Shown: piece after piece, positions 1,469-51,467 of the stretch
How the letters are laid out: each line of letters starts with the position of its first letter
Numbering within the stretch: the first letter of the stretch is position 1
From: Agarophyton chilense
Lineage: Eukaryota; Rhodophyta; Florideophyceae; Gracilariales; Gracilariaceae
Length of the DNA: 64,000 bases
Direction: 5' to 3'
NCBI GenBank assembly: GCA_030374765.1
Contig: JARGXX010000121.1
Location: 558,001 to 622,000, forward strand
Translations under genes and position numbers: made by a program
The notes under the pieces: model-generated
The model's input: the letters and a program-made list of their open reading frames with translations, nothing else
Database searches by the model: none
What the model was told of the DNA's origin: nothing

Positions 1469-4165
1469 TCAGGTATATCCCGTGTTAATTCCCAAATGGT
1501 CGGTCTTTCTTAATTTCAGATTCCAAGATATAAACCGCCGTTTTTCTCGAAGGGGATCTCGTGAATGGCCTCGGAGATCGTCGCACTTAGCATTAATATT
1601 CGTGATGAAGCGAATCACTGAGAGACATGTCGCAGGTATACCGAGGACTCGAAGCGCAATATTGTACAACTCCGGGACTTGATTCCCATGCTTCATCCAC
1701 CACACTAGAGGATCGGCGTTTTCATTATCGGAAAAAGAACCGTGTGGGGTAGTACCAGAAAACTTCTTCTCGCTGTTCATTCCTTGGCCTTCACCCTTGC
1801 ACTTTTGAAATTGGAACAAGCCTCTTTCCAAAGCAATTTGTGATTGACTGTCTCTTCTCAGACTCCGAAGAGCTCTGGAAAGCACTTCTTTCCTGGGGAA
1901 GAAGCTTGTATCTACATCAACAGCGGGGTTAAGAATCGCTGCAAGGCAACAAACGTTGTTGACAATCGGTGGCAGGCCGTCAGGCTGTTGCGTGAAAAGC
2001 CTTGCGAACACATGAGCTCTTAAAGTTTGAAAATCTTTGTCATTCTGCTTGATGTGAACGGATATCTCACTGAAAACTTTAGTACAATCGTGGAGAACAT
2101 ATCCAATGGAGCGTGATTTAAGGATATGTGGCAATGTTGCACAATGGTGCGGAAGAGAATATGAAGAACAATGCAGCAGTGCATCATTCTTCCCATACAT
2201 AGAAATAAGATTTGTTAGCGGTTTCAGGAGAGTTATAAACCATTGCAGATCTTCAAGATAAGCTGGAGACATGAAAAGACGAACAACTTCTCGGCATAAC
2301 GGGATATTCCCACATTTTTCATCAGAGAGTGATGTAAGAAAGCAATGAACCCCCCTTATATGATGTTCGCATGTCTGCCCATTTTGTGTCACTTGAACTA
2401 ATCTGCATGTGTGAATAGCGAATTGCACAGCATAGCAAGAATACCAGAAGTGCTCCGAATTCGATGAAGAGCCCGAAGCAAATGAAATGTAGCTCCGGAA
2501 CAAATCCTTCTCTGAAAAAGAGCCACTAAACAATTCTCTTCCTGTACTTTCTTGGTCTAATTCCAAGAAAAATGAAGCAATCAGTCTGGTACATCTATGG
2601 ACTCGTGCAAGAACGGGATCAGTGTTCAAAAGATCTCGACAAAGCACATCAACTTCTTGGCATACATCCAAAGTCACGCAAGGTGATAGGACATCCTCCA
2701 GAGACGTCTGCATTCCACCTCCAGTAGGTCGACTCAACAAAGTGTGGCAAACCTGGACAGCAACTTGATTTTCTGCCTCGTCAATGATGCCTGGCAAACA
2801 TTTGGAGAGGGGGCTGCCACCGACATTTCGAGAACCGATGTAAGACAACTGTTTTCCCAAACCAAGGAAAAAGTACGACGCAATATGCGACTCATACTTA
2901 ATGCATGAAGATCTGCCGTTGGGATTTGAGTGAGTTGGATTCTCGGTATTCGCAAAGCATATTATCAGATGAATACTAGCAACATCGGGTGTTGTTTGGC
3001 TACTGAAACCATTGATGATTTCCAAACGGGCCGAATTAGTAAGGCATTCCTGGAGCTCATTTCCAGACGGTAAAGAACTTCTTCCGAGCACATTGGGACT
3101 TTTTGGGGTACCGACTTCCTTTCTAGCATTTTCGGACACCTTGATGCTACAAACATGTACTTGTTCGAAAAGAGGACCTTCTACAGAGCTAAACGAAATG
3201 TGGCGTGCCAGCAGGAAGCGTAACACGGATGATATCCTATCTATTGGTTGTGGCTTCAGTGGTCCTCTCCCATCCCAAGACGGTCGTCGAAGTTCTGGTA
3301 TGGAGTTGAAACAGGATGATGTGCGAGACACACTCTTTCCCAAATATTTTCCATCCGAGAGGGCAAGTGGACCTTGAATTGCACCGTCGATGGGGGAAAG
3401 TCGCCTCGGCGTCACGAGTTTTGGGGATTCTTGGATTCGGGGGTTCGGAGAGAGAAAAGAATTACGTTCAGTTCCATTGGTTCGTGCAACTATACGGCTG
3501 ATACGTTTGTTTCTCGAATGTGGTTGGTGTGGGGTTTTTTCAACACCAGAACGAAGAAGCTTGGTTGAGCCGCGCTTGGACACGGCAACATTACCATCGC
3601 CCGAGTGCGACAATTGACATCTTGAACTTGTGCGGAGCATCAGATTCGAAGTCGCGTTAGAGGTCATGGTCTGCTTTTCGTGTAGACGCGCATGTCGAGC
3701 GAGCATTCCTACATGGAGACCGCTATGATCCATTGGAGAAGCCGCTTGGAAATTCCTGTAGGTCTCAAAAACGTTCTGGTAAGTTGGGGATGAAGAAATT
3801 GGCAAAGGAGACGCGAGGGAAGGGCTCCTGGTACTCAAGGCTCGTTTGACGTGATCTGGTGCACTGCACCTCGTCCGAATATGGCGACTTAAATATGTTG
3901 GGTTCTCTGATTTATCGCGGGATGTAAATGAACAAAACCGACATTTGTTTCCAAGGAATACTCCATTTTCATCTTCAATACGGCTGAAGCATACGAAGAC
4001 AGAGGAGCGAGGTCGACCACGGCGCTTTTGGGACTCTCCTTGGACAATGCAGGCTTCTGGAGCTTTGCTAATGTTACTGGCGGCATGTTCTGTAAGTTGA
4101 ACGAACGAGCTACGACAAGAAGCCCAGGGCGTCCTGACTTGCTCCGTGGACTCTGAAGTTCCCAT
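1469..4165 (-). CDS. BED zinc-finger / hAT transposase-derived protein, long open frame
   Basis: A single open frame of about 900 codons is read from the first ATG at 4165 (MGTSESTEQ). The frame is open further upstream to 4387 but without an ATG. Near its N-terminus lies a BED-type finger (CRFC, then H-x4-C about 17 residues on) after an aromatic VFVCF stretch. A long Ser/Arg-rich linker follows. The C-terminal third reads like a hAT core: NVCCLAAILNPAVD resembles the hAT LxPRYK-type segment. A C-terminal dimerisation domain follows (PLVWWMKHGNQVPELYNIAL, then LGIPATCLSVIRF). hAT transposases bind their termini with the BED finger and multimerise through the C-terminal domain. I could not place the catalytic acidic residues or the usual RW motif with confidence. 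An intact frame with an eroded catalytic core points to a domesticated gene or a young non-standard hAT. Confidence 0.7.
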   Translation of the reverse strand: MGTSESTEQVRTPWASCRSSFVQLTEHAASNISKAPEACIVQGESQKRRGRPRSSVFVCFSRIEDENGVFLGNKCRFCSFTSRDKSENPTYLSRHIRTRCSAPDHVKRALSTRSPSLASPLPISSSPTYQNVFETYRNFQAASPMDHSGLHVGMLARHARLHEKQTMTSNATSNLMLRTSSRCQLSHSGDGNVAVSKRGSTKLLRSGVEKTPHQPHSRNKRISRIVARTNGTERNSFLSPNPRIQESPKLVTPRRLSPIDGAIQGPLALSDGKYLGKSVSRTSSCFNSIPELRRPSWDGRGPLKPQPIDRISSVLRFLLARHISFSSVEGPLFEQVHVCSIKVSENARKEVGTPKSPNVLGRSSLPSGNELQECLTNSARLEIINGFSSQTTPDVASIHLIICFANTENPTHSNPNGRSSCIKYESHIASYFFLGLGKQLSYIGSRNVGGSPLSKCLPGIIDEAENQVAVQVCHTLLSRPTGGGMQTSLEDVLSPCVTLDVCQEVDVLCRDLLNTDPVLARVHRCTRLIASFFLELDQESTGRELFSGSFSEKDLFRSYISFASGSSSNSEHFWYSCYAVQFAIHTCRLVQVTQNGQTCEHHIRGVHCFLTSLSDEKCGNIPLCREVVRLFMSPAYLEDLQWFITLLKPLTNLISMYGKNDALLHCSSYSLPHHCATLPHILKSRSIGYVLHDCTKVFSEISVHIKQNDKDFQTLRAHVFARLFTQQPDGLPPIVNNVCCLAAILNPAVDVDTSFFPRKEVLSRALRSLRRDSQSQIALERGLFQFQKCKGEGQGMNSEKKFSGTTPHGSFSDNENADPLVWWMKHGNQVPELYNIALRVLGIPATCLSVIRFITNINAKCDDLRGHSRDPLREKRRFISWNLKLRKTDHLGINTGYT

Positions 4166-4395
4166 GCTCCAGCTTTTCGAGTCTTGGTATTCGAAAAGAC
4201 AAGCCGAAGTGGGCAACACATGTAAAATTGCTTGGGCGCTTTTGAGTGTGGGCCTGTCTTCACAAGCGTGAACGTAAACGTGAACAGAAACGGAGCGTTG
4301 ACGGAACGTGAACCAGTCCTGATCACTGCCCGCTAGGCAAGTGAGTAATCGACACGACGTCCTCGCGTCGCATCTGTTGCAAATCAAAGGCCTCG

Positions 4396-7381: not shown

Positions 7382-9156
7382 ATGGCAGCTCGTCATGATA
7401 AGAGCGCGTCCGACACCGGGTCTCCGGAAAGCAACACACCTTCACCAAGGATCCCACGCCAGCTCTTCGCCTGCGATTCCAGCCACAGCACACCAACACG
7501 TATCATGTCCAACCCCGACCGTCATAACACATCCGCGACTCCCGCCCTTTGCGGTTCCACAGGCTTCCGGTCCGCCCCCCACCCTGGGGATGTTACTAAC
7601 CTCGCGTACGAGAACCGCCGTATTGGCGCCCGCTTTTGCGGACAGGCGGACCCACCGCAGTGGCCGGCCTACGACGCCTTTGTGGGTGCAAATCCGAGAA
7701 CTCGGCGTGGCTCCGCGATGTTGCGGTATGCGCCTTGGTTTCACCCATTGGCTGTCCGCGACGAGGATTTGATCCAATCCTACACCGATAATTCGGAGAT
7801 GCTCCCGGGCGACCTGCCCGGCGTGGTGACCATGTACTGGGATTGGCGTAATTGTATCGCCATCCCGGTACACCACATACTCCGCCGACGCGGTGAATCC
7901 TCTGCGGAGGCTCAGGCCGCGCTTGTGCGCATCGCTTATCTCAGGCACCATCGGGCGCCTTTCTAATTCCCGATACCGCCCGCGGTCGAATTCGACGTCC
8001 ACCTTTACCGCACTCGCGGGAAAATGTCGTACTGTGACCGTCTTAACGTATTGGAAACCCTCGCTTGGAGGGGCACACCGATCGCTCGGCAAGAAGCCCT
8101 TTGCTGGGGACGACCGATTCTTCGGGCAGAGTTCCGCTACCAACCGCGGCAGTCGCGCTCGAAATTTCTTCAGAACTTCATCCGCGATGAGCGGCGTTGG
8201 CGAGCTCGGACCGGGTATTTCGTACCGTACCAGAACACGGAGATTGAGCGCATCGCGCCTGCTCACCGACGTGGTCGGTACGTCAGTCTGCCAGACTGGT
8301 GGTCCTCCTTGGAGGCGTGCTGGGGTTGCTTCATTGAGCTGCCCCCAGTCTTCACCTATGTAGGGTCGTTGTTCTTGAACGATCCCCACTCGGGGTGGTG
8401 GTCCGTCGTGGTAAGCGAATGGGCCGTCCGCACTGCGGCCTTTATCCTCGCTGAGGCGTACGACCAATACCGATTGTGGTACGTGCCACCGCGTGTGCAG
8501 GCTGCGATCCGCCGTTTGGACATGCGCATCCCCCTCGAGGGCGAGGCGAACGAAGAAGAGATGCTGGGCCTCCTCGACTTTGTGGAGGGGGTCCAGTGGG
8601 ATGAGGTCCCGCTGGAGAACTCCCAACGCATTCAACCGCGTCGCGGGTCTGGCCCCGGATTCGGGAGGAATACGCGCTAGCGGGGGATTTCATCTACTTC
8701 GACCCCTGGGATTACCACGAGATCAGCCGCGAGGAAGCGGAAGCCAACCGGCATGCGCCGCGTGAAGTCCCGGCCGACCACCCGCGAGGGTATGCCGACT
8801 CGAGCGACTATTACCGCGGCTATGCGGATGGTGACCCGATGGTCGACAACGAACCGGAGGATCCGGGTCACGCTCCGATGGAGGGTGACGAGTCCGGCGA
8901 GGCCGGTGAGGAGTCCGTTGAATACGGTGGTGCGGCTCCATCCGGGGCTGCTAATGCCGTGCGAACGGATTTCTATCCGACTTCATCGGTGGCAGGCGGG
9001 CCCGCCACCGCCGCTGGCGTGGAGCGGGGCGAGGTCATCGCGCGCTTCCTTCGGGAGGTGGGGCTTCGCCCTTCCGAGATCTCGGATGATGTGGCCGCTA
9101 TGCGGGATGCCTTAGCCAACCGCCTGGGCGGGGGTCCACCTCGTGCGGAGGAATGA
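7382..9156 (+). pseudogene. Antisense gene of element A, conserved protein of unknown function
   Basis: This gene lies inside element A but on the strand opposite to gag-pol, between the chromodomain and the 3' LTR. It starts at an ATG (MAARHDKS) about 50 bp from the LTR. Its product of roughly 590 residues is nearly the same as the one in B and clearly related to those in D and F. Conserved blocks include YAPWFHPLAVRD, GYFVPY, ELPPVFTYVG and DQYRLWYVPP. It is rich in Trp, Tyr and Arg. No membrane segment or known enzyme motif is seen. The C-terminal third is acidic and ends GGGPPRAEE. The frame carries about two breaks. Function is unknown. Confidence 0.7.
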
Positions 9157-16964: not shown

Positions 16965-17913
16965 TGTAGGACAATGCCCCCAAACGGGAAAACCTACGAA
17001 GACGTCCGGATCTTCCTCTCACGAGGTAACCGGCGCGGTAGAGCCCTCTCAGGGATCGGCGCGCAATGCCGGGTGTAAGCCGGAGCCGAACCGTCGCGAC
17101 GGGCGCAGGGAGGCTGAAAGAAGCCGAGAATATCCGCCGAAGCGGTGCTTGCGCATCCTCTGAGGAGGCAAAACCCACGAGAGTGGCGAGCACGAGAGGT
17201 GTCAGTGCGAGCCGCAAGAGCGGGAATTGCCCAATGAAGGGGAGGAAAAGGGAAGGAAAATGGGAACGGAGGCAAAAGGGCGAGGTTGACCACGAGTCGC
17301 AAGAGCGGGAATTGCCCAATGAGGGGGAGGAAAAGGGAAGGAAAATGGGAACGGAGGCAAAAGGGCGAGGTTGACCACGAGTCCCAAGAGGGGACTCGGG
17401 AATAGCCGGCACTGCCGAGTGTAGCAAACCGTATACACGGGCGGAACCACGAAGTGGGAATAGATACCCAACACACGAAGGCTGCTTGAACGTCCAAGGG
17501 GGTTGGGAAGCCGTGCACCACGGAAAATCCCTCCGTAATGAGTTGTATATCCGCGCAGGCGGTTCGACCCAGAGCCAAGATCTGGAAGACCAAGATCACC
17601 CTTGTTGGGGAGACTTCACTGGACCGGCGGCCGCGAGGCCGGCGGCCTAAGTACTGTAGTCACCGTAGAATACAATAAATAAAGTCTATCCTAAATAGCT
17701 AAATGTCCGTCTAACAAAAGGGGCCAATCTGGCGGCCACGTGTCGCGCGGGCGCCGCGGCCACGTGTATGGCACCCGGTCCCGCCGGTGCATCACCGGCG
17801 TTCTGGCCATCGCCGTGAAAACGGATTACTTCTACTCATAACGAGGTTGCACGCCGGAGGCTCCGGAAGATACTTAAGTCCCCAAAAAGCTCCTTGGAGG
17901 ACGTTGCTTTTCA
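16965..17913 (-). repeat. LTR 2, shared by elements A and B
   Basis: This is a 949-bp LTR with TG...CA ends. It is both the 5' LTR of A (primer site at its left) and the 3' LTR of B (polypurine tract at its right). It is longer than the other two by an 85-bp tandem duplication. Confidence 0.9.
17213..17382. repeat. 85-bp tandem duplication inside LTR 2
   Basis: The units 17213-17297 and 17298-17382 both begin CGCAAGAGCGGGAATTGCCC and differ at very few positions. LTR 1 and LTR 3 have one unit only. The extra unit accounts for the whole length difference of the middle LTR. Confidence 0.9.
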
Positions 17914-17932
17914 TATCCCCCCCTTAAGACAG
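17914..17932 (-). promoter_or_regulatory. Polypurine tract of element B
   Basis: The minus strand reads CTTAAGGGGGGGATA directly before the LTR. It matches the tract of A apart from run length and sets the minus orientation of B. Confidence 0.8.
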
Positions 17933-17959
17933 GGCGAACACCTCGAAGAGGAAGTCGGC

Positions 17960-19735
17960 ATGGCAGCTCGTCATGATAAGAGCGCGTCCGACACCGGGTC
18001 TCCGGAAACCAACACACCTTCACCAAGGATCCCCCGCACGCTCTCCGCATCTGATTCCAACCACAGCACACCAACACGCACCATGTCCAACCCCGACCGT
18101 CATAACACATCCGCGACTCCTGCCCTTGGCGGTTCCACTGGCTTCCGGTCCGCGCCCCACCCTGGGGATGTTACCAATCTCGCGTACGATGCCCGCCGTA
18201 TTGGCGCCCGCTTTCGCGGACAGGCGGACCCACCGCAGTGGCCGACCTACGACGCCCTTGTGCGTGCGAATCCGAGAACTCGGCATGGCTCCGCGAGGTT
18301 GCGGTATGCGCCTTGGTTTCACCCATTGGCTGTCCGCGACGAGAATTTGATCCAATCCTACACCGATAACTCGGAGATGCTCCCGGGCGACCTGCCCGGC
18401 GTGGTGACCCTGTCCTGGGATTGGCGTAATCGTATCGCCATCCTGGTACACCACATACTCCGCCGACGGGGTGAATCCTCTGCGGAGGCTCAAGCCGCGC
18501 TTGTGCGGATTGCTTATCTCAGGCACCATCGGGCGCTTTTCGAGTTCCCGATACCGCCAGAGGTCGAATTCGACGTCCACCTTTACCGCACTCGCGGGGA
18601 AACGTCGTACTGTGACCGTCTTAACGGATTGAAAACCCTCGTTTGGAAAGGCACATCGATCGCTCGGCAAGAAGCCCTTTGCTGGGGAAAACCGATTATT
18701 CGGGAAGAGTTCCGCTACCAACCGCGGCAGTCGCGCTCGAGCTTCCTTCAGAACTTCATCCGCGATGAGCGGCGTTGGCGGGCCCGGACCGGGTATTTCG
18801 TACCGTACCGGAACACGGAGATTGAGCGCATCGCGTCTGCTCTCCGATGTGGTCGGTACGTCAGTCTCCCAGACTGGTGGTCCTCCTTGGAGGCGTGCTG
18901 GGGTTGCTTCATTGAGCTGCCCCCAGTCTTCACCTATGTAGGGTCGTCGTTCTTGAACGATCCCCAGTCGGGGTGGTGGTCCGTCGTGGTAAGCGAATGG
19001 GCCGTCCGCACTGCGGCCTTTATCCTCGCTGAGGCGTACGACCAATACCGATTGTGGTACGTGCCACCGCGTGTGCGGGCTGCGATCCGCCGTTTGGACA
19101 TGCGCATCCCCCTCGTGGTTGAGGCGAACGAAGAAGAGATGCTGGGCCTTCTCGACTTTGTGGAGGGGGTCCGGTGGGATGAGGTCCCGCTGGAGAACTC
19201 CCAACGCATTCAACCGCGTCGCGGGTCTGGCCCCGGATTCGGAAGGAATACCGCGCTAGCGGGGGATTTCATCTACTCCGACCCCTGGGAGTACCACGAG
19301 ATCAGCCGCGAGGAAGCGGAAGCCAACCGGCATGCGCCGCGTGAAGTCCCGGCCGACCACCCGCGAGGGTATGTCGACTCGAACGACTATTACCGCGGCT
19401 ATGCGGATGGTGACCCGATGGTCGACAACGAACCGGAGGATTCGGGTTACGTTCCGATAAAGGATGACGAGTCCGGCGAGGCCGGTGAGGGGTCCGTTGA
19501 ATACGGCGGTGCGGCTCCATCCGGGGCTGCTGATGCCGTGTGAACAGATTTCTATCCGACACCATCGGTGGCGGGCCCGCCGGCAACTGCCGCTGGCGTG
19601 GAGCGGGGCGAGGTCATCGCGCGCTTCCTTCGGGAGGTGGGGCTTCGCCCTTCCGAGATCTCGGGTGATGTGGCCGCCATGCGGGATGCCTTAGCCAACC
19701 GCCTGGGCGGGGGTCCACCTCGTGCGGAGGAATGA
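17960..19735 (+). pseudogene. Antisense gene of element B, best-preserved copy
   Basis: This is the longest-open member of the antisense gene family: more than 500 codons from the ATG (MAARHDKS) run without interruption, with about one break near the end. Order of blocks: a Ser/Thr/Pro-rich N-terminus; a central conserved domain at roughly residues 110-430 (YAPWFHPLAVRDENLIQSY, EEFRYQPRQ, GYFVPYRNTEIERI, GRYVSLPDWWSSLE, ELPPVFTYVG, SGWWSVVVSEW); then a Tyr/Asp-rich acidic tail (GDFIYSDPWEYHEIS, PADHPRGYVDSNDYYRGYAD). No signal peptide, membrane segment, zinc finger or catalytic triad is evident. It lies convergent to pol, whose chromodomain ends about 330 bp away. A promoter in the adjacent LTR reading outward is an inference. 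Confidence 0.75.
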
Positions 19736-20067
19736 CCGGAGCTTCCGGTAGAATGTAGGGCGGCGCCACTAGGGCGCCCTTGCCAGTAGTGAGAAATAAA
19801 AGAAGAGGGTCGCCTTTCCGACGCCCTTTCCAAAGTCCACTTCTTTCTTTCCGGGGTACCGGTCTTCAACCGGGGTTCCGGCGTTGCAGGGAACCAGCCT
19901 AGCTGGGAGTTCCGTGTTTAACGGTGGGCGCTTCGCGCGCAGACCAGGTAACTGGCACGACCACCAACGACGTTGGGATAGCGTGAGCGGTTGCTTCCTT
20001 CCCCGCGTTTGGGCATGGACGGAGATGGCGCGTGGCGCCACCAGCCATTCCATTCCGTGTTCACGGT

Positions 20068-23000
20068 TTATTTCTCTTGGGCGTTTACCAGCGTGGCTGG
20101 GAGTGCGGTCCCCGCAAGGCGGTGGTATCGCATTACCGCGGAGCGCGGGAGGTGCTCGATGGGCTCCGGGGTGTCCCAGTCCGGCCCGTATCCGTACCAG
20201 CGGTTCCGGTACTGGAGCACCCCGTGCTCATCGTAGCTATGTCCGACGATTCGGTCGAGGACGTACTCCTGCACGTAAACTTGCCGGCCTTGCCGGGTGG
20301 TGGTGACCCGAGCCTCAGCGCCGTGTGGTGCTGGGCTCGTCGTCGCCTGTTCCGGGTCACCCGGTTTGTCATTCCGCTCTGCAGTTGTTGCCGGGTTGCC
20401 GGGGCTGCCGTACCGCTTCGCGGAAGTTGCCGGCGCGGCCGGGTTGTGTTCCCGCTGGGCGGTAGGGGCTTCCCTGAAGTCCGATCTTACCGCGAGTTTT
20501 CAGTGGTCCTTCCGTCTTGGTGACGGTTCGCCGAAGGCCTCCGCTTGATTTGCGGCATGCGACGTTCCCATTGGTGGGCAGTTTCCGCCGTGCAGTGCGC
20601 CGTGGGTGGTGAGTGGTTCACCGTCCCGGCGGTCCGCGTCCGCGGGGTGGCTGTCAGCCAATGACCGGGATGCCGGGTGCCCATTGGTCCGATCTCCCGC
20701 CCGGGTCACGTGACCCTGAGGACGGGTGGTCGGGCCATCGCGGACGGTTGGCTCCGATTGTTCGGCAAGGGAGGCGGTTTTTGACTTGTCGCTGCGCCCG
20801 TTTTCCCCCATGCGATTCGTACCGTTCTCAACGAAGTGGCTCGCTAGACCTGCTTGCGCAGCGCCCGCCGGAGTACCGGTATCGACCGAAACGCTCGTTG
20901 TGCGACCGCGAATGCGCGGGGAGCCCTTAGTTGCTTCCACGCGATGCGGAGCGTCCGTAGGGTCTCGCTTCCCAGCTTCGGGTCTTCGAGCGCCTTGGTT
21001 CCCCTTGCGGGGTTGCGTGGCGGTCGGATTGACTGCCGCGTCCCGCGGGAGCGGAGTAACGTCCAGCGACGATGCTGGATGCCCGCTCGAGGGCCTTGCC
21101 CGGGGTCTCCGGTTAAACTTCCGTTGCGACGGCGATGCTTCCGCGATTGAGCGGGTCCCCTCCCCCTCCTTAGGGCCGCGAGGGCCAGGTGTTTCCGGCA
21201 TTGCCGGTGGTTCCGATAAAGTCGGTATATAGGAGAGACCCCATGGGGGGTGCGGTACCACGGCGGGGCGTGGTCCCACCGTTGTACCCGTGGTATGCGA
21301 GGCCGTTTCGACGGGGGCTGATGCGTTTTCCACCTGCGGCGGTGGGGCGGCTACGATGCGGTCTTGTGAAAGACGTTCGTGGTCGCCGTTCTTGTCCACC
21401 ACAACGGTACCGGGGAGGGAGGACACGACCCGGAACGGACCTTCAGCGACAGGCGAGAGCTTGTGACGCTTGTCGGTCCGGGGGTTGTAGTACTCCCGGC
21501 TAACGAACACGTAGGTTCCCGGCTTGGGCGGTGCCGGTAGTGGTCCGCGTAAGCGGTTATCAAAGTCCCGCTTGTAGGCGGCCTGGGCACGTTCCATGGA
21601 CTTCCGGGCGACTGGTACGAGCTTGGTAATCCAGTTCTTCCACTTGAGGTGGTACTGGCCCACGGATGGGAAAGAGTTGATCCTGTGTTGGGGTTCGACC
21701 GCCACTGGCGGGCGTGTCCTGGAGAGCACAAGCTCGAAGGGAGTCAGACCGGTTGTCCGGTGGACCTACGTGTTGTAGGCGTAGGTGATAGCATCAGAAT
21801 AAATGTCCCACGTCATTGGGTGATGGGATACGTAGGAGCGTAGCGACGCGAATAGGGTGCAGTTGAAGCGTTCCACCTGCCCGTTTGTTTGCGGGTGGTA
21901 GGTGGTAGTAAACAGGTTCTTGACGTCGAGGATGCGGCAGACGTCCTGAAAGAACTTAGAGGCGAACTCCTTACCGTTATCGGATAGAACCTCTATCGGA
22001 GGGCCATAAACGAACGCCCAGTGCTTAACGAAGGCGTTCGCAACCGTGAAAGCGGTGATCTTCCGTAAAGGTACGGTGTGCACCAGCTTCGAAAAGCGGT
22101 CAGTGATAACCAAGAAGAACTTGTTTCCCTTGCGCGTCTTGAGTATAGGCCCGAGAATGTCGATTGCGACAAACTCGAGGGGCGCCCTTGCGGGGAAAAG
22201 CTTCATCCATTTGGAGTGCTTCCGGAGTTTCACCCGGTTCTTTGCGCATTGGGTGCAGAACTGCACCGTAGCGTATCAATCAACCGCCATAGTGGGCCAA
22301 TAAAAGTCCCTTCGCAGGGTTAGATAAAGTTTTCTCCCACCGGAGTGTCCCCCGAGGGTCGGGTAGTGTGAGAGATGGAGCACCCTGGTTTGCAGGGTGT
22401 GGGGGACCACGATCTGGGATCGTTGGTCCACCGTCCGGACGAGGTAACCGATGTCGTTTACCTCGAACGGGAGGTCCTCTCCACCGTATAGGCGGGCCCG
22501 TATGCGCGTGCAGAACGGGTCGCCGAACTGTTCTCGGATCATCTCCTCGGTGGAGATGGGTACAAAGGTCCCGGGTACGGGTGTTTCATTCTCGCGCGCT
22601 GCGAGTAGCTCATCCATTTCCATGGTGTCTTCTCCGGTTTCGGGCCAATCCGACTCCGTCGGTGTTTCCCCTTCCAAGGTAAAGCACGGGATCTCGTCGA
22701 CCTCCGGGTCGGCAAGTGCTCCACCTGTCGTAGGTAATCGAGAGAAGGCGTCTGCTTGGGTGTTCTGGACACCCTTTTTGTAGACGACCTCGAAGTCGAA
22801 TTCCGCCAAGCGGAGGCGCCACCGCATTAAGCGTCCAGAAGGATCTGCGATGTGCAGCAGCCACCTCAACGAGGCATGGTCCGTGTACTCGGTGAAATGA
22901 GCGCCCATGAGGTATGGGCGCAGAGTGGATAGCGCCCAGACCACTGCGAGGCACTCCTTCTCGGAGACCGAGTAGTTGCGCTCGTGGACGTTCAGCGTGC

Positions 23001-25268
23001 GGGACCAATAGCCAATTGGTTTGCGTTCCCCCTCGGGGGTGGTTTGGAACAGTGCGCAGCCCACCTGGTGGTCGCTGGCGTCGGTGTCGATGGAGTAGGG
23101 AAGCCCAGGTTTGGGCAAGGATAGGATGGGAGCTGTCGTAACTGCCTTAATCAAGGAGCGAAAAGATTCCGACTGATTGGTGGTAAATGGCGCAAGCTTC
23201 GGTGGCTGGCTCTTCCGCAGTAGCGCGTTTAGCGGAGCGGCGATATCCGAGAAACTCGGTATAAACCGTCGATAGACGTTGACCAGACCTAAAAAGGAGC
23301 GGAGCTCCGTTCCAGTACGGGGCTCCTTCGCCTCGCAGAGAGAGACTTGATACGAACTTGTTCGATCATTAACCGTCCTGGACGGATGACGTGCCCGAGA
23401 TACTTCACCGTGTCGGTGAAGAACTCGCACTTCCTCAACTTGAGGGTTATTCCTGCGTCTCGCAGTACGGTCATCACGTCCCGCACGTGGGTCAGGTGAT
23501 CGTCCAGGTTTCTGGAAAAGACAATGATGTCATCCCAGTAGACAAGGCACGTGCGCCACTTGAAACGCGACATCAGTATGTCTATTGCCCTTTGAAAGGT
23601 GGCCGGTGCATTGGTTAAACCAAACGGCATCCGCTTGAAACGATAGGAACCCGAGTGGCAAACAAACGCGGTTTTGTCTCGGTCCTCTCCCCGGACTGGG
23701 ACTTGCCAGTAGCCCCAGTTAGCATCCAGAGCCGTAAACACGGTAGCGTCCCCGAGCGAGTCGATACACTCGTCCATGCGCGGGATCGGGTAGGTGTCCC
23801 TCACGGTGACGGCATTGAGGCGGCGTTAGTCAACACAAAACCGCCACGTGCCGTCAGACTTGAGGGCCAGCACCACCGGTGAAGCCCAAGGAGATTAGGC
23901 GGGCTCGATGACTCCAGCACGGAGCATCTTGTCCACCTAAAACTCTTCCTCCTCCCGAGCTTTCGGTCCCGCCCCGTAAGGGGGTTGTGCAACCGGACGT
24001 GCGTCCGGTAGCAAGTCTATCCGATGTTCGGTTGTATTGATCTCACCCAGTGAGCCGTCCCACATTGTGGTAAACTCGCGTAGCATTCCGCGTAAGCAGT
24101 CCCGGTGTGAGACCGGTACATGACTCAGGTCCAGGTCCTCGAGGGCCTTGATCGGGTCTATCTTATCGTAGCTCGTAGGCTGTGCCCTGGTGTCAGGTGT
24201 GGGAACCGACGAGGTCGGGAATGCATCCATCTTGACGGTTTTATCGAGCGCCAACTGCTGTGCCTCCCCGGAGGTTTCCGCACCGGATTCCGGGAGACCA
24301 TCCTCAATAGAGCGGGTTATTCCGAGTACTTTGGCAGCCGTCATCTTTGTAGGGAGCATCGCGAGCGGGTGCGGCGTCATAGACCCAATGACTTGGTTCT
24401 TTGCCAGCGTCTGGGGACCCTTCCCCAGATTGGCAACCAACACCCTGAAAGGGGAATTCGGCGTGACTTGCACGATTCCGTTCGCAACGGTTAACTGAAA
24501 TTTCTCGTACAACGAGGGCAAGGGCTGAACAACCCGAAGACCGTGTTGACGGGAATTGACTGAAACCATAACCTGGCTCTCCGGGGGTATGGTTACTGAC
24601 GAGGCAACGCGTAGCTTCGAAGAATCCCGGTTCGCCGGTGTGGGTTCCTGCGCAGCAGGTAGAGGAACGTGTTTCCTCGATTCCCGCTTCAGCGGTTGAC
24701 GAATAATGTGGACGGTCGATCCGTCCTCAAGTTCCACCTGCTTAAGGCGTGGGCGGATGGCGTCGACAAACCTGTCGCAGTAGTCACATCCCAGTATAAC
24801 TGGCGCGGCCAGCGAGAGGCACACAATAAAAGTTAGTTTAACCACCATCCGCCCTAGCCTGACGACCAGGTCGATCACACCAGCCGTTTTCAACGGGTTG
24901 TTATTGGCGTACGACACGTCGGGTACCGTTTCAGAACGGATGAGTGACCGCAATGGCGGGGGTAAAACCGATTCCACAATAAAGTTCGGCCCAGCACCTG
25001 TATCCAGAACAGTGAGATGTCTCACCATAAACTGCGTGTGCAGACCAAGGTCAGCGTAAACCTTGTAGTTACGCTTGGCCATTACCAAGACTCTATCCGA
25101 GATCCGGTTATTTCTAATCCGTATCCACGGTCGACGCAACATACCGAAGTGTTTAGAGTCCGCGTCTGCGGTGTCCTTCCTTGTCAGGATTTTCACCGGG
25201 GAGCGAGGTATCGGCGCCTCGGGCGTCGTCAGCCTCAACTCTGAGGACGCCTCTCCCGAAGGGGACAC
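20068..25268 (-). pseudogene. pol of element B: protease to chromodomain
   Basis: The domain order is as in A: protease with LDTGAGPNFI; RT with YWDDIIVFS; RNase H with DTDASDHQVGCALF; integrase with AIDILGP, LSDNGKEF and GQVERFN; an HKLSPVAEGPFRVV linker; and a chromodomain (YVLDRIVGHSYDEHG) ending near 20068. It is nearly identical to A in most stretches. It is more decayed, with about four breaks. The shared break pattern with A shows that both derive from one already defective copy, or that one arose from the other by duplication. Confidence 0.88.
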
Positions 25269-25290
25269 TCCCTCTATTCTTTTCCCTGTA
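25250..25290 (-). promoter_or_regulatory. Candidate -1 frameshift site at the gag-pol junction of B
   Basis: The same heptamer G-GGA-AAA, gag stop and small TCCC...GGGA hairpin as in A are present, and pol is again in the -1 frame. Confidence 0.55.
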
Positions 25291-27393
25291 CAGGGTCCTG
25301 GTCGGGCGAAGGCCCGACTTCCTCGGCAACGAGTGCATGATTCCGTTGCACGGTAGCTACCGCAGGAGCGGGTTGAGATCCACCAGCGTGGTTTGGCGCT
25401 GGTGCGGCGCGTGCCGGCTGAGCCGGTTTGTACCGATAATTCGGAGTGTGAGCCAATGCCTTGGGGAAGTCCGTCTTCGCGCGGAGATATGACGTGAGTG
25501 GCACGGAGCCCTTCTCCTGCGGGGAGAGGGCTTCGTAATTATCCACCACTCGCGCCATATCGCGTAGCGATAAAAGGCATTGCGGGGAGGTGTGCCCGCG
25601 CTCGTAGCACAAGTGGCACACCAACGTCACTCTCGCGTTTCGCGGTACGGCATTCCGAGCATCGGTGTATCTCCCGGGTTCCCGGTTTCCAACCCATCCA
25701 GGGCGCTGACTTCGTGTCATTCCGTTCGAGTACGGCATACGGGGACCGGAGTGCAGCGATAATTTAGATAGAAGACCTGCCCGTTCTCCGTGTCCCTTGC
25801 AGTTGAGTCAACCAAGCCATCCGTCGTAGACGGTAATTCCGTTGTCGGAATAGATAAAACATCGTTATGGATGACATTCATATTGTCATAACCCTGTTTT
25901 GGGATACCATCCGTCGCAAATAACGGTGAAGAAGAGTCCGACTCAAGCAGCAATGTCTTAGCGGCCTTCGACCGGGTTCCCGGATTGCGTGCACGTAGTG
26001 CATCTCCCTCTGCGCGGGCAAACTGTACGAGTTCAAAGTAGGTCACCTTCGGCTCTTGTTCCCTGTAACGGGCGACAAGAGTCTTGATGGCTGGATCCAA
26101 GCCATCAATGAACATCGTACAGCGTTCCCCAGCGGGGTATACATTACCACAACAGTGGAAAGCTTTATTCAGGGGTACCGAGTAATCGGTCTCAAGCTCG
26201 CCGGAGCGTTGTCGAGTGTCTCGCAAAGCGAGTATTGCCGCTTGTATCGCGTAGTTGGTTGCGTAGGAACGCAGGAGGTACTGCACGGCCTCGGGCAAGC
26301 AGGTCACACCTCCTTCGGAGGCTCGCGACTAGCCCCGAACCGACAAAAACTGATCTTCAGCGACACCCCGTAGAAAGTAGGGTAGCGCCAAGTAGGCTTG
26401 TCCTTCGTTCATTCCGAGTAAATCGGCTTCCGCTACAAAGCGGTGTAGGAAATACAAGACCAGAATTGGATCATCCCCAGTAAACCACTGGTTACGAAGT
26501 GAAAGCTGCATCCGCTTGATGCAGTCTTTCACTTTACCCGTGTCACGCGGTGTCCGACCTAAAGAGGAATCTTCTAGCCGGTAATACCGGTAGGACAGGA
26601 TTGTCCTGTACAGAGGGTTGGTGGGCTTCAAGGTTTTGAGGCCCGGATGTCGCCGACCCTTGGGGCGCGACCGGATGGCCCCGTAGGTGGCAGAGGACCG
26701 CTTTGAGCGGGAAGAGCGCCCATAACGATCTTGTGGGTCATCGCTCACCGACGAATCGGAACTCTCCGAGTCACTCGGTTTAACGTCCGACTCAGATGAT
26801 GAGTCGGACGGGTGTCCGTGCTTACGGTCAGAATCCTGGTTCTTCCGGCTCTTCCGGTTCCGCGACTGGGTCTCCCGATGAGAGACAACCGGTCTAGCCG
26901 CGTTCGCGGGCGAGATTAACGTCCTCTCGACCGACTCAAATCTGCTTCGGAGACGCTTGAAGCGATTCGCCATACCTTCTGCGAAGGAAGAAGGAGCGCC
27001 TGAACACTCGAGTAGTGTATTGACGTCCGACCGCAATACGCGGATATCCTCGGCTAACTCACTTGTAGGGGGGTTAGCGAGGCTTCCTCGTAAAGAGGTG
27101 AACTCCCTCGAGAGGGTATTGTGAGCAGCCCGAAGGGAGCGGAGCTGCTCTTCCAAGCGTACAACCCGCGCTTGGTCGACCAACCGCGGAGGCGGAGAAA
27201 CCACCGTTGCGACGGTCGTTAACCCGGAATCGGGCTGCGGGTCTTCAGTGCCGGTGACCGGTATCTCCCGGGAAGCCGGTGTTGGAGCCAGGGCCTGTGG
27301 AACATCAGTGCCTCTGGCATCACCGCTCTGGCGGGAACGGCTGCGTGTTGCAGGAGGCTCCATGCTAGGCGGTTTCCTTGGCATTGGCCACAT
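25274..27393 (-). pseudogene. gag of element B
   Basis: It is homologous to the gag of A, starting at the matching MWPMPRKPPSMEPP. The Ser/Asp-rich middle, the capsid-like core (LKPTNPLYRTILSYRYYRLED, WFTGDDPILVLYFLHRF) and the knuckle CHLCYERGHTSPQC are all present. It carries about two breaks. Confidence 0.85.
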
Positions 27394-28426: not shown

Positions 28427-28578
28427 TGTAAGCTTGTTTGTTGGGCAAGCGTACCCTTTTTCATTTTTTTCTCTCCCCTCCTTTCTCTCTACCCGGCGTC
28501 GCTGCTCGCGACGCCGGGTTTATATAATCTAATCTCCCGGGACACGTGTGGTGGGCTGTGCACCACACGTGGCCCACA
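28427..28578 (-). repeat. LTR of element C, left (3') copy
   Basis: This is a 152-bp LTR. TATATAA occurs on both strands (TTTATATAATC), so it could act as a two-way promoter. CACGTG is at 28543-28548 and 28566-28571. The GGCGTC...GACGCC arms near 28496-28517 form a hairpin (ACCCGGCGTCGCTGCTCGCG region). Confidence 0.92.
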
Positions 28579-28598
28579 CGCTCCCCCACTGAGACACG
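28579..28598 (-). promoter_or_regulatory. Polypurine tract of element C
   Basis: The minus strand reads CAGTGGGGGAGCG directly before the LTR start TGTGGGCC. This fits a polypurine tract and sets the orientation as minus. Confidence 0.65.
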
Positions 28599-28599
28599 C

Positions 28600-29030
28600 G
28601 CCATCGTGGCGCGTGTCACAAGCCAGCGTACAGTAGCTCACCAGCTCAACCTCTTGGGATTTTTCTTTTCAGATTTGCTGGAGGGTGAGCTGCAACCTAG
28701 GCAGCTTATATTGCGTGACTCCGTGCAGGTTCAGTGTGGAAACACTCGTGCGCTCCCTTTCTTTCCAACACTGCGACTCCCTCCTCACCGTCCATCTCTC
28801 CCTCCACGTTTGCGTCCTCTGCGCCGACGCGGCATCCTTACCGTCTTCGGCGCCGCCACCTTCCTCTGACTTTCTACATCTTTTGCGCTTGTTCTCTTCT
28901 ACCGCCGCTGCGAATCGTGGATCACCGCTGTGGTCCTCCTTGTGCGCCTACGTTTGTGGCACTGTACCACCTCTGCCCCGCTCCCCCTTCATATCCGCAA
29001 CCCAATTAGCGCCAGCGACTGGCTCCCCGG
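28600..29030. other. Pyrimidine-rich leader between the LTR of C and its antisense gene
   Basis: The plus strand is C/T-rich here with no conserved frame. If the antisense gene is transcribed from the LTR, this would be its 5' leader. A short ATG-started basic frame overlaps the next feature at 29031-29267. Confidence 0.4.
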
Positions 29031-29263
29031 ATGCTTAAGACTTCGAAGGCGAAGGGGCGGCGTCGTGTGGCAGAGCGTCGGGCAGGGCAGCCCTGTTCGG
29101 GCGCGCATCCGGCTGGGCCCTCGGTTTCTATGTCAAAATCAGCGAGGCAGCGCCAGCGGCGAAAGTGCCACGAAACCGCTCGCCTTTCGGCACCTTCCGC
29201 ACCACACCTTCCTAGGCCTGAACATCTCAGGAGCGCTCCGTCCGGGAATACTCGATTGCTTAA

Positions 29264-30472
29264 GTGAACCCAGAAGGAAGGAAGCCGTGTGTTGGTTTTT
29301 TCTCGTCCTGGTCCCTCCCCCCCGATGATGAGGAGGTTCCCGATCAGGGAAGCGGTGATCGTTCTATACGACCACGTACCGCCCATCGTGGCAGCGCATC
29401 CTCTCAGCGCCCTGGCCCAACTCGGACTCGCCCTCGCGTTGCGAAGAAGATCGTTCTCTCGTCTTCCTCCTCTTCCTGCTCTTCATTTTCCTCAAGTTCC
29501 TCTTCGTCTGGCACCGAGTCGGCGTCGACGGATAGTGAGTTCCACGAAGATCTCTTGGCCCACGAAAAGGGCCAGGATCCTGCACCTCGCGACTCTTCTG
29601 CTTCGAACTGGATAATCGAATCCCTCATGTATGGGTCGAACTATACCTTGGCAGGAATCAGGTTCAAGAAGGGAGTCCTCTATGCTTCAGCCAACTTTCA
29701 TGGTGGTCCTGAGCACTTCTATCGTGTTAGCGAACGATCCTTTTCCATCTCTTTCGATTATCCGGAAAGTTGCGAAGCTCTATCTTCCATTCGTAAGATC
29801 CTTTCAGGGGCGGACTGCGACGGTGCTGGAAAGGCGATTGAGGGAACCCTTCCTCGTCCTCGCAGCGACCGAGTGCGGCCTTCGACGTTAGATTCGCATT
29901 TGCGTGCGCGCATGCTGGCCATCCTCCGCCGTTTTCTTGGGGTGGCTATGCGGGTGAGCGTTCCCGGTAATCGGCCTTCCTTCTCCGGACTTCGCCGTTA
30001 TTACGATAACTCGCGTGGGTCGGTTACTTTCCCCGATACTTCCACTCCGCGATGCCTAGTGCATGCAATTGCGAATCTTGCTGATTCAGAGTGAGGTTCC
30101 GACGTCGCGCACAGGGTCCTTGACGGGCTGCGAAGATTCCGCGGCATCTTTCCTACAATCTTCTCCACCATCCGGGCCGTGCAAGCCTTCGGGCTTGGTC
30201 TGGACATGCGTCACGTTCCGCGGTCCTACTACGAGTTCACGACGTACAGAGCGGCTACTCTCACCGGACTCTACGTGGTTCGTCTCCGAACTGGAAACGA
30301 ACTTGACCACGTTGTCGGGGTCAACTTCGGAGAGGACATGATACTCGATAGCTCTGAGGAGTATCCTTTTCGTCTCTGCCCTAAAGTTCTCCATCTTTGC
30401 GGAGGCGGAGGAGAACAAACCAGAATAGCCGAGGTTCGCGAACTCTTTAAGGCTGGTCGTCAGTGCCACTAG
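29264..30472 (+). pseudogene. Antisense gene of element C with a Cys-protease-like pattern
   Basis: This gene of about 400 codons lies on the plus strand inside minus-strand element C, between integrase and the 3' LTR. The N-terminal third is Ser- and acid-rich with a long serine run. The C-terminal part is a compact domain. PRCLVHAIANL (near 30053) resembles the catalytic-Cys helix of papain/OTU-fold proteases. About 85 residues later DHVVGVNFGEDMILDSSEEY resembles their His strand and Asp/Asn turn. The order Cys, His, Asp fits that fold. It is unrelated to the antisense genes of A, B, D and F. No clear ATG opens the frame. It has about one break. Protease activity is an inference from the motif pattern only. 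Confidence 0.55.
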
Positions 30473-30808
30473 GGACCACTTCTTAGAACAGCCGTTGCTC
30501 GGCTTTATGCGTTCAGTAAAGCTTCTGGCACTTATGCGTTACAAAACTCGCCTTCCTCTTTCTTGGGTTTGGGCTCAAGTCTTGTCGCTTTATGTTAGCT
30601 CATTGACATGGAACCTAAGTCCACTTCCTTTAGTCCTGTATTCCTCCTCATCCATTCATCTTCTTTTCCTTCTTCTCTTCTTCATCACTTCTTCTTCAGT
30701 CCCACTTCTTCGTTTTTTCTTCTTCTTCACTTCTTCATCTCTCTCACATCAGAAGTCCACTTGTCCATTCACCGGCTGGCATGGTGCGACGCCATTCTCT
30801 TTACCATC

Positions 30809-33800
30809 TCAGCATACCATGTTCCTACTCTCCATGCGTAGATGCATTGGAGGCCTCTTGTATAGGACTAGGCTCCTCGCATGAATAGCCTCGCGAGTGA
30901 CTCGACCTGTCGACGACTGTAGCTCGTAGCGAGGATGATCTGCCTTCATCACACGGCAAGGCCCGTAATAGTACGACTCGAACGCAGGCCACTTCTTCAC
31001 CTTATTGAACGCGGGCCCATGAGCGACTAGAACCTCATCACCAACGTTGAAGTACTTCACCTTTCCCTTCAGTTCGCGGGGAATGTAGGCCTTCGCTACC
31101 GTGATTGGTCTCTCGCCAGCTGTTCACAGGACCTCCGGCGTCCTCTGGCTTGGCGTTGCTCCAGGCAGTAGAGCGAGTGTATCGTTGGCAATCATCCGGG
31201 GACGAAGACCATAAAGTAACTCAAACGGGGACGGCACCGTTCCTCGGCTCCTGCGTCGATATCCGTACAGGACTTGCGGCAGGCATTCTGCCCAGTCCAG
31301 GTTTGCTTGCAGTACTGTCTTTTTGATGGCCAAATAAATCGTGCCAACCATCCTCTCGGCTCTACCGTTCGCCATGGGGGCATACGGCAGGACTATCCTC
31401 CACGTAATCCCATGTCTGTTCATGAATGATGCAACCGCTCTGGCCGTGAAGGCATTTGCATTATCCGAAACGATCGTCTTCGGAGGGCCTAATGAGCGGA
31501 TTATTTCCTTCTCCACGAAGTCTATCACTGTATCGGCAATGGAGTTCTCGGTGGCCCATCCAATAGGCCATCCCGTGAGGTGCTCCACTGCAATTATGGC
31601 GAACCTCTTTCCTTCCCGCGAGGACGTCAGAGGCGCTGCAAAGTCTATCGAAAAGGTCTCGAACAGTCCCGTGATTGGTGCACGCAGGTTAGTTCGATAT
31701 GTCGGGAGTCTTCTCGCTCTTTGGTATCCTACACAACCACTGACATAATCAGTGATGTCTTGGTACACTGCTGGCCACCAAAACCTGTCGCGGACGAACT
31801 TCCTCGTGCTTGCGACGTCCCAGTGTCCAATATCGTCATGGAACATGCTCAATATCTTTGGTCGTGCGTCCCTCGGCTGTATCGCACGAAGCCCATCAAG
31901 CTCTCTACGGAATAATGTATCGTTCCACAGCATGAAGTTCTTCGCGTTACGGCGAATCGCCAGCCGGATGCGGGGGTTCTCTTCTTGCACTCGCGTTCCG
32001 GAATGGAACCGAGCAACGTTCAACACATAGGGCTCCAACCCCGACAGTTTGGGTCGGCCCACGAGATGGTTGCGACCACCTCGCTGGACAAATCGTCCTC
32101 TATCCGCGGATTCGCCCTCTTGGTCGTAGGGATCCTCGAGAGATAATCCGCGGCTGCATTGGCAGAACCTGGGCGGTACTTGACCTCGAAGTCGTATTCT
32201 GTCAGTAGGTTCAGCCAACGGGCTAGCCTTCCATGAAGGTCTTTCTTCTTAAAGGCGTACTGCAACGCCTGATGATCCGTGATCACCGTGAACGGTACCT
32301 CCGACAGAAGATACACTCGAAACTACTTCAGGGCAAACACAAACGCAAGAGCCTCTCTCTTGCATGCAGTGTACTTCCTCTCGGCTCCCGTCATCGTCCG
32401 GGAAGCATACTGAACGGGGTGATCCTTCCCGTCCTCCTTCTTCTGAGCCAGCACCACTCCAAGAGCCACCGACGATGCGTCGGTCTCCACGACGAAGGGC
32501 GCTTCGAAGTCGAAGAACGCCAGAACGGGCGTCGTCGTCAACTGTCTCTTCAGGTTTTCAAAGGCGACCTGCATCTCCGGAGTCTACTGAAACTTCTTCT
32601 TGACAGAAGTAGCGGTGTGTAACGTCGCCGAAATTTCGGCAAAGTTCTTGATGAAGCGACGATAGTAGCCTGCCAATCCCAGAAAGCTTCTCAGCTCCGT
32701 GGTGGTTCTCGGTACGGGTGCGTCAACGATGTCCGCTATCTTTCCTATGTCAACCTGAATACCTTCTTTGTTGATCACATGCCCCAGCAACTTGATCTCA
32801 GACTGAGCAAAGCTGCCTTTAGTCACCTTAACCTTTAGGTTCGCGGCATGAATCCTTTCGAAAACCTCCTGACAATGACGGAGATGATCCGCCAAGTTAT
32901 CTGAGAATATGACGACATCGTCGACGTACACCATTGCGTATGGTAGTCCGCGTAGGACTCCGTCCATCATCCGCCGAAACGTCGAGGGAGCGTTCATCAA
33001 CCCAAAGGGCATAACCTCAAACTTGTACGTGCCGTAACGGCAAGTGAACGTTGTCATCTCCTTGCAGTTCTCCGACACCCGAACTTGCCAGTATCCTGTG
33101 TACAAGTCCAGCGTCGTGAAGATCTTCGCCCCTGCTAGGTCGTCGAAGATCTCTTCGATCTTGGGGAGAGGCCAACGATCAGCCTTCATCACTCGGTTCA
33201 GCTGACGGTAGTCGACACAGAACCTTGGTCTGCCATCCTTCTTCGTCGCAATGACTACGGGGAAAGAACAGGCTGAACTGGACGGGGTGATAACACCCTC
33301 TTCCAGAAACTCATCCACATCTTTTTGTATGATTGCCCTGTACTTCGGCGGCATCCTGCGTGCTCTAGAATAGATAGGTGTATCATCGGTCAACTCAAAG
33401 GAGTGCACCACTGGAACATCAGCAGTTCGAAGGTCACTCATGTCCCAAGCTATGATGTCAGTCTCCTTGAGCGTGACGGTCAGGCTCCCTTGAACCTCTT
33501 GGGGAAGATGTTTCAGCTTCGAAGCTAGGAGTGCCGATCGGCTACTCTCCTCGTCCTCACTCAAGGTCTCCACTGCGTCCATCACCGACTCCAAGTCTGG
33601 CTCGTACGGTTCCTTATTCATGATGGCAAGAACCAATTCAGGTTCGCCATCCGATTCGTCCCCCGAACTCGACGAGGACGAAGACGACTCAACCGGAACT
33701 TCATCCGGTCCCGAGTGCTGAGGGGATGTAAATTCCTCACTATCTGTGTGAGCTCCGTTGATGATGGGAGGCTCATTGTATAGGGGCAACCACACTTCTT

Positions 33801-34380
33801 TGGTGCCAACAGAAAGACTCACCCGCTGACGGCTGAAGTCCAGCTGCGCCTGCAAGGCTTCTAACGTCGGACACCCTATTATGACATCTAATGGGTTGTT
33901 CTGAACAACCAGGAAGTACAGAGGAACTCCTAGCTTCCCGAAGGAGACTGGAATGTCATTCGCACAACCCAACACAATAGCGGCTGATCCATCTGCAACT
34001 GTCACTCTCCTCGTGGTAGGTGCAGGTTGGATGGTCAACTGCTCACACATTCGTGACGAGAGAAGGTTCGGCACTGCTCCAGAGTCCAGAAGGGCGTTTG
34101 CCTCTGTTCCATAGAGCCTGACGGCGACCACCTTCGACTGACGGGGACGGTCAGTGGCATGCAGAACGGAAACATGAGTCAACGGCACTCTGCCTGACAA
34201 AAAGCGCTTCAAGAGCTTCCTAGCCTCCTCTGCATCCCGACGCAGCAACTTCATAAAGGTCAATCCAGATGGGGCAGCCGCTAACTCAACCATAACGTTG
34301 TACTTTCCAACGTGATCCTGTAATCCATAGGAAGAACTCTTCGTCTTCCTCGTCTTCTTGGCCTTCCTCTTCTCTCGCAA
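30809..34380 (-). pseudogene. pol of element C: protease, RT, RNase H, integrase
   Basis: On the minus strand the order is: protease (ALLDSGAVPNLLS); RT (FTTLDLYTGYWQVRV, then MVYVDDVVIFS); RNase H (VVETDASSVALGVVLAQ); integrase finger region (DDIGHWDVASTRKFVRDRFW) and DDE core (FSIDFAAPL, VSDNANAF, NGRAERMVG); and a C-terminal region (FNVGDEVLVAHGPAF). The linker between protease and RT is rich in Ser, Glu and Asp. No chromodomain was seen. It has about three breaks. Confidence 0.88.
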
Positions 34381-34510
34381 CAGTGCGAGGGGCCATGGTG
34401 GTGCGGTTGACCAGGGCGTTTATGTCCATCATGTTGCTGCGGGGCTGTTTGGGGAGTGCCTGCCCATCCGCATTCCTCTTCGCGGCGGCAATGACATCCT
34501 TGGCAGTACT

Positions 34511-35427: not shown

Positions 35428-35463
35428 GCGGAACGTTAGATGACGACGACATTGTTACTTCTT

Positions 35464-35484
35464 CGAATCTTGGATGCGGTACCA
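35464..35484 (-). promoter_or_regulatory. Primer-binding site of element C
   Basis: Directly inside the right LTR the minus strand reads TGGTACCGCATCCAAGATTC. The complement, ending ATGCGGTACCA, looks like a full tRNA 3' end including a T-loop TTCGAAT. An A1-U72 pair with A73 would fit some tRNA-Leu species, but I cannot assign it. Confidence 0.7.
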
Positions 35485-35634
35485 TGTAAGCTTGTTTGTT
35501 GGGCAAGCGTACCCTTTTTTTTTTTTCTCTCCCCTCCTTTCTCTCTACCCGGCGTCGCTGCTCGCTACGCCGGGTTTATATAATCTAATCTCCCGGGACA
35601 CGTGTGGTGCGCTGTGCACCACACGTGGCCCACA
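35485..35634 (-). repeat. LTR of element C, right (5') copy
   Basis: This is a 150-bp LTR almost identical to the left copy, followed by the target duplication ATTAC at 35635-35639. Confidence 0.92.
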
Positions 35635-51425: not shown

Positions 51426-51453
51426 CCGCGGCTCGGAATGTTCTTCCTCGTCT

Positions 51454-51467
51454 TAAGGAGGGGGAGA
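51454..51467 (+). promoter_or_regulatory. Polypurine tract of element D
   Basis: TAAGGAGGGGGAGA directly precedes the right LTR (TGTAGAGC). The same 11-mer AAGGAGGGGGA also occurs twice within pol. Confidence 0.85.

Follow-up and report, generated by a model that had tools for sequence, protein, structure and literature searches.

A conserved antisense protein gene beside the 3′ LTR in three families of chromodomain Ty3 elements of the red alga Agarophyton chilense

Three families of chromodomain Ty3 elements of the red alga Agarophyton chilense (here B, D and F) carry, on the strand opposite to gag-pol, a real and conserved protein gene, which has been kept by purifying selection in all three of them. 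We analysed a window, i.e. a whole stretch of 64,000 nt (positions 558,001 to 622,000 of contig JARGXX010000121.1), to which all the coordinates refer unless a locus outside it is named. A preliminary description of this window had proposed a conserved antisense protein gene in three Ty3 families, and a codon-choice test, dN/dS ratios and the fixed position of the gene all agree with it. As regards its role, we consider it quite possible, if short of probable, that this is an accessory gene of Gracilariaceae chromodomain Ty3 elements, whose product would be made from its own mRNA starting in the 3′ LTR and would act in trans, in the nucleus, as a regulator or anti-silencing factor; the confidence that we attach to this function is low to moderate.

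The coding nature of the frame was evaluated both between and within families. In local alignments the antisense proteins shared 40% identity between B and D (254 bits) and 34% between B and F (214 bits). When intact copies were compared, the identical residues were 212 of 567 aligned (37.4%) for B-D, 186 of 552 (33.7%) for B-F and 198 of 583 (34.0%) for D-F. We then considered the identical residues with degenerate codons and counted those in which the codon differed, obtaining 124/200, 119/177 and 127/188 for B-D, B-F and D-F, respectively, against random expectations of 132, 119 and 129. Between families, hence, synonymous positions have been randomised, whereas about one residue in three has been kept.

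Within families, the dN/dS of the antisense frame was 0.50 for D (30 copies), 0.53 for B (5 copies, namely four loci plus window copy A) and 0.70 for F (30 copies; 0.60-0.80), so that the constraint on the gene is weak in the last family. Related pairs are pooled in these ratios, which also contain the drift that follows insertion, and this drift shifts them towards 1. Third positions held 45%, 43% and 37% of the within-family differences in D, B and F, respectively. Calculated by blocks, dN/dS was lowest in the core of the protein (D 0.38, 0.27-0.56; B 0.44, 0.28-0.70; F 0.63, 0.51-0.78) and highest in its tail (0.72-0.82, with confidence limits that cross 1) in all three families. The ratio near 1 across all blocks that, according to the preliminary description, would argue for chance open frames was therefore not observed. 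The A-B pair taken alone gave a value compatible with neutrality for the antisense gene (0.72, 0.47-1.22), as it did for pol (0.67, 0.44-1.15); in the same pair the values were 0.54 (0.35-0.86) for gag, 0.65 for the protease ORF and 1.45 (0.42-7.16) for the chromodomain.

That the gene is instead a chance open frame, or the shadow of another frame, has next to no probability. The strand opposite to the antisense gene does carry an open frame of 397 aa in both A and B (18020-19213 in B, minus strand), but across copies this frame contains on average 3.6-9.7 stops and is only 17-20% identical between families, and its comparison with D gave 24% identity and 70 bits, stops included. We rejected it as a gene and consider it a shadow of the antisense gene. 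In general, the other five frames had a mean of 3.6-30.5 stops per copy and none was stop-free in any copy. One minus-strand frame showed dN/dS ratios of 0.50, 0.67 and 0.75 with 21, 20 and 31 stops per copy (D, B and F, respectively); low ratios are expected there, since this frame has the same third positions as the antisense frame.

All four copies of the gene in the window (A, B, D and F2) are disrupted. The span proposed in advance for B, 17960-19735 on the plus strand, is right as regards the start ATG and the family length, which is 591 codons plus stop (the alignment extends to 19732 and the stop up to 19735). The window copy itself ends earlier: its open frame runs from 17894 to 19543, with the first ATG at 17960 and a nonsense codon at 19541-19543, past which lie 64 codons of the family length, final stop counted. 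The A copy (7382-9156, plus strand) is split into two frames by a frameshift near 8.65-8.67 kb. The D copy (49530-51386, minus strand), 94.7% identical to an intact relative over 51386-49533, has at least two stops, one at 50277-50279 and another upstream of a 260-aa ORF. The F2 copy (62242-64000, plus strand) continues beyond the end of the window into locus L066; it has four stops in the scored stretch and its start position is not an ATG.

Intact relatives were found elsewhere in the genome, encoding proteins of 591 aa (B family; L002 and L003), 618 aa (D; L010, L013, L027, L032 and others) and 608 aa (F). We searched 79.8 Mb in 135 contigs and scored at least 79 matches for B, at least 147 for D and at least 149 for F, as subsets of 1821, 1523 and 1532 first-look candidates, respectively; the preliminary description would have taken a lack of homologs in other elements of the genome as a sign of chance frames. 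Three families with so many matches in one genome offer material for a direct test. We considered as open any locus that, read in its own frame, was uninterrupted between the start codon and the C-terminus of its family, and these were 2/4 for B, 11/30 for D and 5/30 for F. Counting in the register of the intact reference, which conceals frameshifts and start-codon losses, gave 2/5, 12/30 and 7/30 stop-free copies, respectively. Both sets of fractions are biased upward, because the loci counted were the best-scoring among the scored matches. In a hand count restricted to elements with the gene, 49 of the 79 B-family matches were stop-free across the 549 aa searched.

The position of the gene was determined in 64 copies (4 B, 30 D and 30 F, with one copy of each family coming from the window). 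The chromodomain lay downstream of it on the opposite strand in all 64, as anticipated by the claim that the gene is outside pol and opposite to it, and the family LTR lay immediately upstream in 63. In the copies examined, therefore, the gene lies between pol and the 3′ LTR on the strand opposite to gag-pol, which are the location and the orientation of the aORF-3R class. In B, the chromodomain region (20074-20436, minus strand) is convergent with the antisense gene and separated from it by a gap of 338 bp; across families this gap is about 320-400 bp. A genomic RNA that reaches the 3′ LTR has to span the antisense gene from end to end, hence it and the antisense RNA would be complementary over the gene.

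On the other side, the start of the gene is very close to the LTR. The LTR that serves as 5′ LTR of A and 3′ LTR of B (16965-17913, minus strand) has its upper edge 46 nt from the B antisense ATG; the 3′ LTR of D (51468-52382, plus strand) has its edge 81 nt from the antisense ATG, and that of F2 (61558-62217, minus strand) 24 nt from the start position of the gene. In B, the 3′ LTR and the gene are separated by a polypurine tract read at 17914-17923 on the minus strand, and in D and F a polypurine tract likewise lies between them. Since only 24, 46 and 81 nt are left, a promoter of the gene's own would have to sit in the LTR or in those few bases, and from this arrangement the 3′ LTR is the probable starting place of antisense transcription. 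We also observed that, read on the gene strand, the polypurine tract is followed by TTAAG in all three families (17914-17928, 51452-51467 and 62218-62233), which could be a shared signal.

As a candidate signal for the end of such an mRNA, AATAAA occurs on the gene strand at nt 60 after the stop in 5/5 B-family copies (19795-19800 in the window, counted from the family stop) and at nt 53 in 30/30 F-family copies, while in the D family neither AATAAA nor ATTAAA was found within 150 nt after the gene (0/30 copies). When 100-nt stretches were drawn at random from the plus strand of the A/B elements, 5.4% contained one or the other of these hexamers, a background that is too low an estimate of chance for F because the A/B elements are GC-richer. 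In the F family the AATAAA that follows the antisense gene stands right after a short hairpin (about 3578-3594 of L065).

The elements that host the gene are the following. On the minus strand, A and B form a tandem of Ty3 elements that share the LTR at 16965-17913; head-to-tail at 6471-28372, they show three LTRs and two bodies, the structure that recombination between LTRs would be expected to give. The gag, protease ORF and pol of B (20920-27393, minus strand) are spread over more than one frame. The central A/B LTR contains an 85-bp direct duplication (17208-17394), and a tandem-repeat scan showed no such array in the outer two. In D, the 5′ LTR is interrupted by about 790 bp at 40139-40929 relative to the 3′ LTR. 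The Pfam Chromo domain, whose cut-off is 25.1 bits, was matched by D with 37.5 bits, and A (25.0) and B (24.0) fell just below; a chromodomain placed after the integrase, as in chromoviruses, is thus predicted for D by its Pfam match, and F1 and F2 have a homologous region.

The F element of the preliminary description is not a single element. Precisely, the gag-pol seen in the window (54008-61556) belongs to an element, F1, and lies on the plus strand, hence on the same strand as the antisense gene, which belongs to another element, F2. The F1 chromodomain is cut by the minus-strand LTR at 61558-62217, after which the antisense gene starts at 62242, whereas the chromodomain and pol of F2 lie past the window end on the minus strand (locus L066). 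Consequently the F gene does run opposite to the pol of its own element, as claimed, but this element is F2 and the relation is not visible within the window. The 5′ LTR of F2 is also outside it (L071, 992-1657) and is 93.8% identical to the 3′ LTR. The far side of F2 (L071, from 1658 onward) showed neither a match to the remainder of F1 nor a target duplication with respect to the junction at 61556, so the F1/F2 junction is either a rearrangement or an assembly join. The pol of F1 holds a solo F-family LTR at 58822-59481 with GCACC on both sides, which together with the F2 3′ LTR at 61558-62217 forms a 660-bp inverted pair.

The antisense protein is about 600 aa long. Its N-terminus is rich in Ser, Pro and Thr, its conserved core measures about 300 aa and its tail has a low pI, with a short motif shared at the C-terminus. 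In the B, D and F proteins, Ser, Thr and Pro make up 31-35% of the N-terminal part, and the pI is near neutral in the core (5.7-7.3) and 4.3-4.9 after it. The blocks listed in the preliminary description (APWF.P.A.RD, GY.VPY, EL.P...Y.G and SG.W.VV) were all recovered in the alignments, with family-specific changes. Among eight chosen rows, and requiring a letter in at least seven of them, 51 core positions were invariant, of which 11 were Arg and none Lys. Basic clusters, considered as candidate localisation signals, were weak in B, D and F, and only P0006 had longer basic runs, at its ends. No membrane segment was predicted in any of six proteins, whose maximum hydropathy over 19 residues was 0.91-1.45.

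Searches of Pfam, of PDB by sequence, of viral contigs and of folds returned no convincing match to the antisense protein, which bears out the earlier remark that no fold is recognised in it. In particular, PF04195 (TRP28) had no match at E ≤ 10 in 9/9 members, nor at E ≤ 1 in P0001, P0006, P0007, P0012 and P0013. The fold model reaches moderate confidence over the core, which is predicted, with moderate confidence as well, to be mostly helical. Since the core model is only moderately confident, the missing fold match argues weakly for a new fold.

Each protein search scored roughly 8,000 candidates sharing most words with the query, and among them there were at least 13 relatives. The eight of these 13 that carry a species name are all from Gracilariaceae (Gracilariopsis chorda 3, Gracilaria domingensis 1, A. 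chilense 4). As relatives come from protein records, and gene annotation often masks repeats, a wider range in red algae is possible. The A. chilense protein P0011 of NCBI (502 aa) occurs letter for letter in one genomic copy, and for the other three the best local identity to the 64 copies, none of them exact, was 89%, 78% and 88%. Between A/B and D, the local identity was 62% for pol, 55% for the protease ORF, 48% for gag and 42% for the antisense protein, which changes fastest of the four, as accessory proteins tend to do. A/B and D are the closest pair for the antisense protein and also, by a small margin, for pol; this agreement fits a co-descent of the gene and pol, which three families cannot prove.

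Among known systems, HBZ of HTLV-1 is, like the algal gene, an antisense gene of an LTR element; it is a regulator and a basic-zipper protein, whereas Pfam found no such domain in the algal protein. In HTLV an antisense promoter has been reported in the 3′ LTR (PMC7264820, available part). VANC, as presented in the accessible portion of its source, is encoded by the element and opposes silencing in trans, which is the working principle proposed here, although VANDAL elements are DNA transposons and the algal host is an LTR element. According to the available parts of PMC7264820 and PMC11963269, antisense additional ORFs between pol and the 3′ LTR are found in Grande (gene23), RIRE2, Retand (ORF4/TRP28) and PvRetro13; they occur in most copies of their own families, their function is unknown, and in position and antisense orientation they are like the algal gene. 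The gene23 product of Grande is described as nuclear and as transcribed from a promoter that lies upstream of gene23 (PMC7264820, same portion). Retand elements are non-chromovirus elements of flowering plants and carry PF04195 in 97% of their clusters (PMC11963269, in part), whereas in the algal proteins this domain is absent at the thresholds given above. Another antisense additional gene of a Ty3 element is brtn of the fungal Boty/BcGypsy1 (PMC7264820 and PMC8365987, available parts).

The preliminary description knew of no such protein in chromodomain elements. This stands for the protein family, which is unrecognised; the kind of arrangement is not new. Chromodomain elements with additional ORFs are described in the available part of PMC11728184: those of plant Tekay elements are about 400 aa long, with three helical coils and long disorder. 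In both cases an extra conserved protein is found in chromodomain Ty3 elements, but it is 5′ of gag-pol in Tekay and beside the 3′ LTR in the alga. Within the open-licence papers searched we recognised no antisense gene of this kind in red algae, and none is described in the accessible portions of PMC6338049, PMC5408684 and PMC2864245. We therefore regard the algal protein family as new, and the kind of arrangement in which it is encoded as known. A further unrecognised protein at the same slot, this time in red-algal chromodomain elements, would suggest, provided that it is unrelated to brtn and gene23, that antisense genes have been acquired repeatedly beside the 3′ LTR, and this in turn would indicate that being expressed antisense from the LTR confers an advantage common to such genes.

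For antisense accessory genes of LTR elements, which are known from flowering plants and a fungus, the function is unknown according to the available part of PMC7264820. For the algal gene, among the three roles named in the preliminary description (to regulate, package or protect the element), we ranked regulation and protection first. A promoter inside the 3′ LTR, active in the antisense direction, would make a separate mRNA ending before the chromodomain; the protein would act in trans, and its target, reached most likely in the nucleus, would be the DNA or the nascent RNA of its own element, contacted through the many invariant arginines; and the transcription of the element would be set or protected, by activation or anti-silencing, with a logic like that of VANC of VANDAL or HBZ of HTLV-1. 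This reading was ranked first because the strand separates transcription of the gene from that of gag-pol, no membrane segment is present, arginines are invariant and the Grande product is described as nuclear with a promoter of its own (PMC7264820, available part). Against a nuclear regulator, the near-neutral pI of the core is atypical of a nucleic-acid binder and there is no clear localisation signal; against an mRNA end of its own there is the D family, lacking both hexamers, and against any hint from the fold, the lack of a fold match. A more specific version, which we regard as rather unlikely as a whole, is that this undescribed protein family, known only from Gracilariaceae, has a helical fold that is new and, encoded antisense in chromodomain Ty3 elements with its expression driven by the 3′ LTR, acts as a family-specific anti-silencing factor, i.e. 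a red-algal counterpart of VANC and HBZ of separate origin.

The same invariant arginines, together with the Ser/Pro/Thr-rich N-terminus, the low-pI tail and the strict linkage to the elements, would also suit a cytoplasmic role in which the protein, bound to Gag or to the genomic RNA, aids packaging, reverse transcription or the import of the cDNA into the nucleus. We hold this to be unlikely, as a separate antisense transcription, such as that proposed above, would uncouple its dosage from Gag and Pfam found no known RNA-binding family. It is less likely still that the antisense mRNA pairs with the genomic RNA and that the protein shields the element from the resulting small RNAs: the two RNAs would indeed be complementary over the whole gene, and the additional ORFs of maize and sorghum Tekay are reported to be similar to a protein with a dsRNA-binding motif (PMC11728184, in the part available), but neither Pfam nor the fold search found a dsRNA-binding domain and the position of the gene differs from the Tekay case. 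A cofactor of the chromodomain integrase, for the choice of integration site or chromatin targeting, would fit the adjacency of the gene to the chromodomain region in 64/64 copies; however, this adjacency follows from position alone, and we give such a role little credit. Non-coding antisense transcripts are known from other retrotransposons (PMC7264820, available part), and the antisense RNA could be what matters, with the protein incidental; this is contradicted by residues that are conserved while the synonymous choice is random between families, which makes it highly improbable. The location between pol and the 3′ LTR would also be that of an envelope-like protein, but the gene is antisense and a membrane-spanning segment is absent in 6/6 proteins, so that this reading is even harder to credit.

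Two other features of the window were annotated. Element C (28427-35634), in which no match to the antisense gene was found, belongs to a different Ty3 lineage, its pol being 40% identical to that of A over about 400 aa, and it has short repeats, about 150 bp in length, on either side. In AT-richer DNA, a frame of 972 aa (1469-4387, minus strand) matched Pfam Dimer_Tnp_hAT with 25.6 bits, above the cut-off, and may encode a hAT-like transposase or be a hAT-derived gene.
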